From: Kiloniellales bacterium
GTDB taxonomy: Bacteria > Pseudomonadota > Alphaproteobacteria > Kiloniellales > JAKSBE01
Assembly (NCBI GenBank): GCA_030066685.1
Contig: JASJBF010000051.1
Span: 62,001 to 126,000 of the forward strand
DNA length: 64,000 bases
Direction: 5' to 3'
Shown: piece by piece, positions 21,377 through 22,933 of the stretch
How positions within the stretch are numbered: the first letter of the stretch is position 1
Layout of the letters: the number at the start of each line of letters is the position of its first letter
Program-made: the position numbers and the translations under genes
The notes under the pieces: generated by a model
Databases searched by the model: none
Seen by the model: only the letters and a program-made list of their open reading frames with translations
Told to the model about the DNA's origin: nothing

Positions 21377-21382
21377 GGTCAT

Positions 21383-21495
21383 CCCCTCACCCAGCTCCGG
21401 CTAAGGCTCGGCCTTCGGCCGCGCCAATCCTCCACATCCCTCTCCCGCGGGGAGAGGGAGGGGCCCGGCGCGTCAGCGACAGGAGGGTGAGGGGG
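21383..21495. repeat. Dispersed inverted repeat, family C copy 1
   Basis: Begins CCCCTCACCCAGCTCCGGC and ends GGGTGAGGGG; the ends are inverted relative to each other. In the middle CCCTCTCC-CGCG-GGGAGAGGG forms a hairpin. A copy in the opposite orientation is at 47733-47818, sharing the CAGCTCCGGCTAAGGCT flank and the central CCCTCTCCC hairpin. It lies between gor and the ThrRS gene on the other strand, where the hairpins may stop transcription. Confidence 0.75.
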
Positions 21496-21528
21496 CTTTT
21501 CAAGGAGCCAAAGCCCGATTCCCAAACC

Positions 21529-22716
21529 TCACCGGAAGGCCTCCCCCTGCAGGTTCCGCACCGCCGCTTCGATCGCCAATACGTCTTGCCTGCCGTCGCG
21601 CTGGCGCAGGGCGACCGTGCCGTCCGCTTCCTCCCGCCGGCCGACGGCCATCAGCAGCGGGATGCCGGCTTCGCGGGCGTCGACGATCTTGCGCGACAGC
21701 CGTTCGGGCCGGGTGTCGGCGAGGGCGCGGAAGCCCTCGGCCTCCAGGGCGGCGGCGACGCGTTCGGCATAGTCCGCCTGCGCGGCGCCGATGCTGGCAA
21801 CGACGATCTGCTCCGGGGCCAGCCAGAGCGGCAGGTTGCCCCGGTGGTGCTCAAGCAGGATGCCGATGAAGCGCTCCAGGCTGCCGAGGATGGCGTGGTG
21901 GATCATCACTGGCCGGACCTTGCGGTTCTCGGCGTCGACGTAGTGGGCGTCGAGGCGCTCGGGCAGGACATAGTCGAGCTGCACGGTCCCGCACTGGATC
22001 TCCCGGCCGCCGCGGTCGCGCAGGAAGAAGTCGAGCTTGGGGCCGTAGAAGGCGCCCTCGCCGGGGTCGACGCGGTGGTCGAGCCCGGTCGCCCGGGCGG
22101 CGGCCTCCAGCGCCGCCTCGGCGCGGTCCCAGAGCGCGTCGCTGCCGGCCCTCTGCGCCGGCCGGGTCGAGAAGGCGACCCGCACGTCCTGGAAGCCGAA
22201 GTCGGCGTAGACGGCGTGGAGCCGGCGGGAGAAGCGCGCCACCTCGGCCTCGATCTGGTCGTCGCGGCAGAATACGTGGGCGTCGTCCTGGACGAAGGCG
22301 CGGGTGCGCACCAGGCCCTTGACCGCGCCCGAGGGCTCGTCGCGGTGGCAGGCGCCGAACTCGCAGAAGCGTAAGGGCAGGTCGCGGAAGGAGCGCAGCC
22401 GCTTCTTGAAGATCTGGACGTGGCCCGGACAGCTCATGGGCTTGAGCGCCAGGGCCTGGTCCTCGGCCTCCAGGGTGAACATGTTGTCGCGGAACTTCTC
22501 CCAGTGACCGCTGCGCTCCCAAAGCGCGCGCGACAGCAGCTGCGGGGTGCGCACCTCGCGGAAGCCGCCGCGGCGCATCTCGCGGCGGATGTAGTCCTCG
22601 ACGATGCGGTAGAGGGTGAAGCCGCGCGGGTGCCAGAACACCATGCCGGGGCCTTCCTCCTGCTGGTGGAAGAGGTCCAGGCGGTTGGCGATCGCGCGGT
22701 GGTCGTCGGCGTCCAT
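21529..22716 (-). CDS. Threonyl-tRNA synthetase lacking TGS and editing domains
   Basis: A 395-residue protein that matches only residues ~242-642 of E. coli ThrRS: the class II catalytic core and the anticodon-binding domain. Motif 2 is FCEFGACHRDEPSG...RTRAFVQDDAHVF and motif 3 is AILGSLERFIGILLEH. The zinc ligands are present as Cys in KPMSCPGHVQ, His in QDDAHVFC and His in RPVMIHHAIL. The usual IHR before motif 3 is IHH here. The TGS and N2 editing domains are missing, so it cannot clear Ser-tRNA(Thr) by itself. Short ThrRS paralogues occur in some bacteria beside a full-length enzyme; whether another copy exists is not visible. A threonine-rich leader and a terminator lie upstream. ATG 22716 is chosen because the homology starts there. 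Confidence 0.92.
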   Translation of the reverse strand: MDADDHRAIANRLDLFHQQEEGPGMVFWHPRGFTLYRIVEDYIRREMRRGGFREVRTPQLLSRALWERSGHWEKFRDNMFTLEAEDQALALKPMSCPGHVQIFKKRLRSFRDLPLRFCEFGACHRDEPSGAVKGLVRTRAFVQDDAHVFCRDDQIEAEVARFSRRLHAVYADFGFQDVRVAFSTRPAQRAGSDALWDRAEAALEAAARATGLDHRVDPGEGAFYGPKLDFFLRDRGGREIQCGTVQLDYVLPERLDAHYVDAENRKVRPVMIHHAILGSLERFIGILLEHHRGNLPLWLAPEQIVVASIGAAQADYAERVAAALEAEGFRALADTRPERLSRKIVDAREAGIPLLMAVGRREEADGTVALRQRDGRQDVLAIEAAVRNLQGEAFR

Positions 22717-22763
22717 CTTTCGTCTCCGTTCGCTCTTGGCCGGCGGACGGAGGCGCGGAATCG

Positions 22764-22792
22764 AAAAGGCCCCGTCCGTTTCCGGCGGGGCC
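22764..22792 (-). terminator. Attenuator terminator of the ThrRS leader
   Basis: In the minus-strand RNA, GGCCCCG and CGGGGCC pair (7 bp), extended inward by CCG/CGG around a GAAA tetraloop with one bulged A, and followed by UUUU (22764-22767). It lies 25 nt after the leader-peptide stop and 47 nt before the ThrRS ATG. The 5' arm can instead pair with GGCGGGCC inside the leader (22840-22847), which would break the terminator. Confidence 0.85.
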
Positions 22793-22817
22793 CTTGCTTC
22801 GCGCGCTGCGGCTATGC

Positions 22818-22898
22818 TCAGCGCAGCAGGAAACACGGCGGCCCGCCGTCGCGGGTCGTCGTGGTCGTGGTCTGCAAAGCTGCGAAGCGCCTTCTCAT
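22818..22898 (-). CDS. Threonine attenuator leader peptide (26 aa, six consecutive Thr)
   Basis: A minus-strand ORF of 26 codons: MRRRFAALQ, then six Thr codons in a row (22854-22871: ACC ACG ACC ACG ACG ACC), then RDGGPPCFLLR and TGA at 22818-22820. It ends 25 nt before an intrinsic terminator and sits upstream of a threonyl-tRNA synthetase gene. Stalling at Thr codons for lack of Thr-tRNA would cover a CCCGC arm (22851-22855) that otherwise pairs with GCGGG (22842-22846), freeing the latter for the antiterminator. The promoter places the mRNA start on, or one base from, the A of this ATG, so translation is likely leaderless. The design follows amino-acid biosynthesis attenuators; its link to a tRNA synthetase is inferred from the position. 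Confidence 0.85.
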   Translation of the reverse strand: MRRRFAALQTTTTTTRDGGPPCFLLR

Positions 22899-22904
22899 GA
22901 GCCC

Positions 22905-22933
22905 TGGATAGCCCCGGTGTCGTCGAGAGTCAA
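22905..22933 (-). promoter_or_regulatory. Sigma-70 promoter of the ThrRS leader transcript
   Basis: On the minus strand TTGACT (22928-22933), 17 bases, TATCCA (22905-22910). The seventh base after the -10 is the A of the leader-peptide ATG (22898). Five of six -35 bases match the consensus. Confidence 0.75.

Follow-up and report, generated by a model that had tools for sequence, protein, structure and literature searches.

The leader of the enterobacterial thr operon (RF00506, Thr_leader) controls biosynthesis, and in E. coli leader-peptide attenuation also acts on a synthetase gene, pheST. To our knowledge, neither the pheST leader nor the His leaders of hisS and hisZ are leaderless. The latter are found in firmicutes, where they precede hisS paralogues or hisZ (PMC2965389), and attenuation of a synthetase paralogue is therefore not new as such, as far as the part of that paper available to us goes. 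A leaderless case is trpL of S. meliloti (rnTrpL/peTrpL), whose ORF lies at the 5′ end of the transcript (PMC7298713, PMC10117765; both available only in part). The second of these sources, in the same part, also describes SEP5. This translated sORF contains six Thr codons and three Lys codons, lies in the 5′-UTR of an "aspartate dehydrogenase" gene and has been proposed to be a leader peptide. Two further systems concern the enzyme. Anabaena has a second ThrRS, T2, beside the full-length one; it is stress-induced, editing-defective and regulated by Zur (PMC4787780, from the accessible portion). ObaO is a second ThrRS copy that gives self-resistance to obafluorin (PMC11252418, likewise in part).

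Here we describe a leader on the minus strand of the window, by which we mean the whole stretch of 64,000 nucleotides analysed. It precedes thrS2, which encodes a second and short threonyl-tRNA synthetase (ThrRS). We conclude with high confidence, albeit with no RNA or protein data, that a ribosome-mediated transcription attenuator on a leaderless mRNA controls this second, editing-less ThrRS. The class is a known one, the ribosome-mediated attenuator, in this case leaderless. With S. meliloti trpL the thrS2 leader shares the leaderless ORF, the run of codons for one amino acid and the choice between terminator and antiterminator; however, in the extracts available trpL has Trp codons and belongs to a biosynthetic operon, with no synthetase. 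With the enterobacterial thr leader it shares the Thr-rich peptide and the alternative hairpins. The pheST and hisS/hisZ leaders resemble it in attenuating a synthetase gene by means of a leader peptide, but they involve other amino acids and, so far as the partly available literature goes, no editing-less paralogue. SEP5, judged from the part of its description at hand, is probably the element that we find upstream of asd (see below), and differs in preceding a biosynthetic gene and not a synthetase. The closest system in logic is Anabaena T2, although in the available part of that work T2 keeps an impaired editing domain, which the short clade lacks entirely, and the regulators differ, being Zur for T2 and the inferred attenuator for the short ThrRS. 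Among the matches listed, and with subscription journals mostly uncovered, the literature search gave no description of a Thr attenuator before a ThrRS gene.

Organisation of the leader

The features of the locus are as follows, in order of transcription.

22928–22933, minus strand: −35 box TTGACT, read from the sequence; a TTGAC or TTTAC counterpart is present in 57/59 loci
22905–22910, minus strand: −10 box TATCCA, 6 nt 5′ of the ATG at 22898; a weak consensus match (3/6 by our count)
22818–22898, minus strand: leader ORF of 26 codons plus stop, MRRRFAALQTTTTTTRDGGPPCFLLR*; a transcript start at or next to the ATG is inferred
22854–22871, minus strand: sensor of six consecutive Thr codons, ACC ACG ACC ACG ACG ACC, read from the sequence
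22851–22863, minus strand: region 1, 5′ arm of the protector stem with core CCCGC at 22855–22851, overlapping the Thr codons (MFE prediction)
22834–22847, minus strand: region 2, core GGCGGG at 22847–22842, predicted by folding to pair with region 1 or region 3; GGYGG in 59/59
22783–22792, minus strand: region 3, terminator 5′ arm GGCCCCGCCG (of which 22792–22784 is GGCCCCGCC), from the sequence
22764–22778, minus strand: region 4, terminator 3′ arm CGGACGGGGCC plus TTTT, preceded by a GAAA loop, from sequence and fold
22744–22752, minus strand: region 5, CTCCGTCCG, complementary to region 4 and to the thrS SD; a proposed second gate without support from covariation
22724–22729, minus strand: region 6, ACGGAG with the SD of the short thrS, from analysis of sequence complementarity
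21529–22716, minus strand: short ThrRS (thrS2), 395 aa, with a class II core and an anticodon-binding domain, no TGS and no tRNA_SAD editing domain

The promoter-like pair and the leader start thus read TTGACT-17-TATCCA-6-ATG on the minus strand, and thrS2 starts at 22716, 47 nt beyond the end of the terminator at 22764. The antiterminator segment of the leader is GGCGGGCC at 22847–22840, the alternative partner of the terminator 5′ arm at 22792–22784. A sequence-only reading of the window had described the promoter, ATG, ORF, stem, alternative pairing, terminator and ThrRS, and all of them are found on the minus strand where it had placed them. In one detail it can be refined. The last Thr codon was said to abut the stem arm; it is indeed adjacent, but it also supplies the first two C's of the arm, and the lower stem reaches the earlier Thr codons. 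In the MFE structure the protector stem (CCCGC/GCGGG) is formed by leader positions 36–48 with 53–65, overlapping the Thr codons at 28–45. The folding of the minus-strand leader, which had been suggested as a check, gives this stem over the Thr codons, with an energy of −68 kcal/mol compared to −55.2 (sd 3.9) for shuffled sequences, a z of −3.3 that was matched in 0/200 shuffles.

The Thr run, ACNACNACNACNACNAC, is found at a single place in the window and in 0/100 shuffles, which together with its conservation rules out a chance origin. By contrast, GGCGGG and CCCCGCCGG at the observed distance are not rare by themselves, being present at least once in 33/100 shuffles. A default consensus scan of the window called neither a promoter nor a terminator at the leader; the terminator is a strong hairpin with only four T, and is not called by the scan. 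Because of this negative scan and the frequency of the GGCGGG/CCCCGCCGG pair in shuffles, the window sequence alone would not settle the matter.

Comparison with Rfam does not place the leader in a described family. The window leader has no match to RF00506 at E ≤ 10, and the Burkholderiaceae locus L187 aligns to the whole of this model (1–118) with 16.3 bits and E 0.93, where the gathering score is 55. There is no T-box match at the leader at E ≤ 10, the only gathering-level match in the window being a tRNA. The Burkholderia sRNA ncS37 was considered as a possible terminated leader and rejected: its full-length match in the window is weak (18.1 of 112 bits, E 0.57), it has no gathering-level match in 18 Burkholderiaceae loci and none in L187 at E ≤ 1, and no literature link was found.

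It is worth adding that a GC-rich inverted repeat (CTCACCC ... GGGTGAG) can be seen by eye at 21380–21500 of the window, between the end of thrS2 and a convergent oxidoreductase gene.

Distribution and conservation of the leader

One genome scan yielded 80 ThrRS loci, of which 7 are short, and a second, long-frame ThrRS is also present in all 7 genomes reached from these short loci. In total, 59 short-ThrRS loci were collected without duplicates, from Alphaproteobacteria and Burkholderiaceae. Two loci with a ThrRS cut by contig ends (L029, L085) were not counted as short, and a second match in genome G294, at a contig edge (386 aa), was left out of the short-ThrRS set. The short ThrRS is present in at least 13 of 385 genomes of the window's class and in one of two other genomes of the window's genus. 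Of 195 genomes in the genus to which the Bradyrhizobium locus L003 belongs, 25 have it at E ≤ 1e-130, and in one of these the gene has an internal stop. For the family that includes the Burkholderia locus L001 the count is 17/249 genomes; here 71 matched at E ≤ 1e-145, and the 17 were classed as short from their open frames. A search of plasmids matched 100 records, 97 of them below 60% identity. The remaining three, at 60–80% identity, come from Burkholderia and (two) Caballeronia, on replicons of 2–3.5 Mb, and may well be short ThrRS genes.

The leader is present at all 59 of the short-ThrRS loci, 39 of which lie outside the set used to train the covariance model. This model was built from 20 leaders. 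It matched 46/46 short-ThrRS loci, seven of which (L148–L154) are copies of training loci and were excluded, so that the independent count is 39/39 (38 at E ≤ 1.4e-17, and L178 at 8.6e-8). Against full-length thrS loci it gave 0/91 matches at E ≤ 0.01 (best 0.077), and 0/16 in a further set at E ≤ 0.1. Across the 385 genomes of the window's class, a short ThrRS was recognised in 13, and these same genomes contain the 13 best RNA matches; 12 of the leaders concerned belong to the training set. The conservation at the 39 loci outside the training set is the strongest test of the observation. The locus counts are not independent of one another, because the 59 loci are related.

The sensor is conserved with the leader. 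At least three Thr codons lie within the 14 codons before GGYGG in 58/59 leaders, and Thr codons make up 321 of the 1508 codons in 58 leaders; L189, which has a frame shift so that the ORF runs through the terminator, was excluded from this codon total. Leaders with an intact ORF, including that of the window, have 2–10 Thr codons. Some leaders are poor, namely L168, with two Thr codons, L093, with three that are scattered, L189, with its frame shift, and L178, which is a degenerate copy. The sequence-only reading would have been contradicted had close relatives kept the gene and lost the Thr run. This is not the case, as locus L084 of the same genus retains TTTTTT. The search for Thr runs before thrS paralogues in relatives, which it had also proposed, found the leader at 59/59 short-ThrRS loci. 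That reading called a leader on a ThrRS gene unusual, and in this it understated the case: the leader occurs at every short-ThrRS locus of this clade that was examined, and is not peculiar to a single genome.

Flanking ORFs of six loci, inspected by eye, revealed no shared neighbours around the short thrS, and the leader and the gene therefore seem to travel together.

Thr attenuators also occur outside the short-ThrRS loci, for two full-length thrS genes of the window's class carry a leaderless Thr leader: MRTHPVLRSTATTTTTATGGRWRMRA in genome G053, whose ThrRS has both TGS and editing domains, and MTYPTTATMTTTATRCGGP in G281, the latter assigned by eye.

The inferred leaderless start and the proposed RNA switch

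In 57/59 loci a TTGAC or TTTAC begins 35–39 nt before the ATG of the leader, at exactly 35 nt in 35 of them; the two without it are L010 and L191. Four SD-like tetramers were looked for at −15 to −4 from this ATG, and none of the 59 leaders has one. On account of the kept distance and the absence of an SD, leaderlessness looks conserved. We infer that such a tightly kept promoter distance would be hard to explain unless transcription starts at the ATG or within a few bases of it.

The alternative pairing was examined by folding each leader in the predicted stalled state, represented by RNA that lacks region 1 and the still untranscribed region 4. Helix 2:3 is part of the MFE structure of 59/59 leaders, and in 48/59 no other 12-mer pairs as well as the region 2:3 partner. 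As region 3 is common to helices 2:3 and 3:4, antiterminator and terminator are mutually exclusive. The GGYGG of region 2 is present in 59/59 leaders, and in four of them (L094, L096, L097, L178) it persists outside the Gly-Gly frame, which argues that region 2 is kept as RNA and not as peptide. Covariation offers little evidence, as the arms hardly vary. There is a single double change in the 59 sequences, GGTGG/CCACC in L010, and this level was matched by 7/500 shuffles, compared with 54/500 when only the first 20 sequences were used.

A leaderless Thr attenuator before the short ThrRS, as the sequence-only reading had it, thus survives comparison: at least three Thr codons before GGYGG are found in 58/59 leaders, stalled-state pairing 2:3 in 59/59, the promoter distance in 57/59 and the absence of an SD in 59/59. 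The two tests that do not help are the consensus scan and the covariation. The action in trans that the same reading had raised is speculative.

The short ThrRS

The short ThrRS matches TIGR00418 (NCBIfam) with 462.6 bits, above the cut-off of 383.65, but only from profile position 171 onwards. Pfam identifies the class II core (PF00587) and the anticodon-binding domain (PF03129) and nothing further; the TGS and tRNA_SAD editing domains of canonical bacterial ThrRS are absent in the Pfam analysis. Truncated ThrRS constructs of around 400 residues are present in the PDB, and the short ThrRS aligns with them over its length. The genome of the window has a second, full-length ThrRS that is 57% identical to the short one.

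The 11 catalytic, Zn-ligand and pocket positions sampled are kept in 59/59 short ThrRSs. Two clade-specific changes were identified, at positions presumed to correspond to E. coli residues 333 and 512 by our own assignment of the numbering. At N333S, Ser is found in 59/59 short enzymes compared with Asn in 105/107 full-length ones; at R512H, His is found in 58/59 short and Arg in 107/107 full-length. Both positions are beside Zn ligands. In a tree of 34 of the 59 short and 33 full-length ThrRSs, the short sequences form one side of a branch with support 100/100, inside which the 12 Burkholderiaceae sequences are a single group; the full-length ThrRS of the window's genome clusters with alphaproteobacterial ones. 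From this clustering, and because a genome of the Bradyrhizobium survey seems to recur among those of the window's class, we infer that this class is Alphaproteobacteria. We suggest, with less weight than is given to the attenuator, that the short ThrRS is an active, Zn-dependent enzyme that stands by for failure of the housekeeping ThrRS; its activity is itself an inference.

The short ThrRS is like ObaO in being a second ThrRS copy, but ObaO has Ser at Gly463 (PMC11252418, in the part available). Resistance of the ObaO kind via Gly463 is ruled out here, as Gly is found in 59/59 short ThrRSs.

At one locus (L179) the short ThrRS gene has an in-frame stop after about 310 codons, and the leader is intact.

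Related leaders upstream of other genes

The covariance model also gives weaker matches before genes other than thrS. One group precedes asd, in the window's class, with a core of the GGCGGG/CCCGCC type and Thr and Lys codons in the leader (L131, L132, L135, L136, L138, L140–L142, L145, L147, L212, L214, L215, L227). At least two codons of each kind are present in 14/15 asd leaders, with means of 5.1 for Thr and 2.6 for Lys. The identity of asd rests on NCBIfam for 7/15 and on inspection by eye for the others, and the leader peptides were read by hand. The pathway to which asd belongs leads to Thr as well as to Lys. With Thr and Lys codons before asd and Thr codons before thrS, the codons therefore follow the gene, as attenuation predicts. 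The asd gene of the window's own genome has no such leader.

Similar leaders stand before dapA-like genes at L213, L216, L218 and L223 (three of the four scanned); dapA homologues follow L213, L216 and L223, and two of these three have adjacent Lys codons. Other leaders share the core but encode peptides of hydrophobic or mixed composition, without a run of codons (L137, L143, L211, L217, L210, L219, L226, L139, L260, L261). They precede GNAT acetyltransferases, ABC ATPases and, at a distance of about 290 nt, an AAC(3)-like gene (L226, L260 and L261 by eye), and are possibly stalling peptides that sense a signal other than an amino acid. Leaders that contain HMTR are found before small DUF1127-like ORFs (L133, L209, L240; Pfam supports L209, the ORF of L133 has no match and L240 was judged by eye). 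Of the weaker RNA matches 20 were read, most of the lower ones being unread, and L221, L222 and L225 look like chance hits.

A different arrangement is seen in the Burkholderia family, where full-length thrS genes (L196–L198, L200–L208, L156, L157) have another Thr-rich mini-ORF upstream, MTPRTLTETFSERR, MNMTTRTTTAG and variants, followed by a separate terminator. In those that were read a tRNA precedes (anticodon GAC, by eye).

Thr leaders also occur in one genus of another class, where 62/149 genomes have a leader match at E ≤ 1e-6, most matches in these other-class searches being unread. In 14/15 fetched loci a Thr leader precedes an isochorismatase-family-like ORF, an assignment that comes from Pfam for L238 and L239 only and was made by eye for the remainder. 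The leaderless Thr leaders before such ORFs in this genus are those of L238, L239, L242–L254, L258, L259 and L262. Five further places in this genus were read, three of the hydrolase kind and two (L260, L261) without a Thr run before GNAT-like ORFs. L241, the fifteenth of the fetched loci, has the leader TTTTTTTTT, followed by codons for MDDFDHRALRNKLDL that run in frame into an MFS transporter; over 15 residues, MDDFDHRALRNKLDL is 67% identical to the beginning of the short ThrRS, with E 0.04. This arrangement of a Thr leader, about 15 codons like the start of the short ThrRS and an in-frame MFS transporter lies at L241:1501–2967 and is seen also at L255 and L256.

Because Thr leaders precede full-length thrS, isochorismatase-like ORFs and an MFS gene, we put forward the tentative hypothesis, for which the case is at present somewhat short of even, that the leaderless Thr leader serves as a portable alarm which signals failure of ThrRS. 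As such it would provide inducible resistance to natural ThrRS inhibitors or threonine antimetabolites, and would be one branch of a larger group of leaderless attenuators that share GGCGGG/CCCGCC and have exchangeable sensor codons. Uncharged tRNA-Thr would then switch on a countermeasure, namely a spare ThrRS in Alphaproteobacteria and Burkholderiaceae, and an isochorismatase-like hydrolase or an MFS exporter in the other class.

Proposed mechanism and alternative explanations

We propose the following mechanism. RNA polymerase would start at or next to the ATG of the Thr-rich leader ORF. With ample Thr-tRNA, the ribosome would run through the ORF and stem 1:2 would form behind it, leaving region 3 free for region 4, so that transcription would stop at 22764. 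When Thr-tRNA is scarce, the ribosome would stall on the Thr codons and cover region 1. Region 2 (GGCGGG) would then pair with region 3 (CCCGCC) and block the terminator, so that the short ThrRS would be made and charging restored. The anatomy, the conservation with the ThrRS clade, the distance from promoter to ATG, the role of region 2 as RNA and the match of sensor codons to gene are established at the level of sequence; the transcript start, stalling, termination and the induction of thrS2 are inferred.

The trigger may involve no inhibitor. The short ThrRS could be a stress isoenzyme for shortage of zinc or threonine, like Anabaena T2, with the attenuator sensing only a drop in Thr-tRNA. 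We hold this to be possible without thinking it probable. The Zn ligands are intact in 59/59 short enzymes, N333S (59/59) and R512H (58/59) adjoin these ligands, and there is a precedent in the editing-defective T2, which is induced by zinc stress (PMC4787780, in the part available); however, the related leaders before isochorismatase-like ORFs and an MFS transporter have no obvious fit to zinc.

A second proposal extends the attenuator explanation and does not exclude it. Besides the terminator, the read-through RNA may sequester the SD of thrS2 in a hairpin of regions 5 and 6 (CTCCGT/ACGGAG). In antiterminated RNA, region 4, not being paired with region 3, would pair with region 5 and so free the SD, and transcription and translation would be released together. 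The complementarity of regions 4 and 5 is significant against shuffles (p ≤ 0.05) in 15/26 representatives of our choosing and 43/59 loci overall, and the 5:6 hairpin in 13/26 and 19/59 respectively. The SD is predicted to be paired in 22/25 representatives with a recognisable SD. In an alignment of 33 loci, the 5:6 helix keeps 85% of cells, compared with 32–49% when it is slid; these 33 come from the 34 that comprise the loci outside the Bradyrhizobium group plus L178, L093 being left out. However, RNAalifold finds no consensus pair in the region after the terminator (again without L093), and covariation in 5:6 is not above shuffles. Region 5 of the Bradyrhizobium group is complementary to region 4, whereas inspection by eye shows no such match to the SD. 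The sibling leaders pass in only 4/15 cases for 4:5 and 4/15 for 5:6; a sixteenth, L213, was not evaluable, and in L131, L135 and L142 the wrong GGGG was taken as the terminator arm. The pattern was also noticed post hoc, and on balance we consider such a second gate unlikely, though not to be discarded.

A reading in which the Thr-rich ORF stands alone, as a small gene or sRNA that ends at a terminator of its own, and thrS2 has a separate promoter downstream can hardly be sustained, for although leader RNAs can act in trans, as do rnTrpL and peTrpL in S. meliloti (PMC7298713, in the part at hand), the leader lies directly upstream in 39/39 independent short-ThrRS loci, the flanks of six loci are unshared (by eye) and the region 2:3 switch is conserved.

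Implications

With the attenuator as the preferred explanation, a clade of ThrRS that lacks the editing domain would be induced when accurate charging fails, and fidelity would be traded for supply upon a defined trigger. The 59 natural variants of one leaderless attenuator, together with the Thr and Lys siblings, form a data set on the coupling of ribosome and RNA polymerase on leaderless mRNA. If the leader does prove to be an alarm for ThrRS failure, leader codons of this type would reveal resistance genes.
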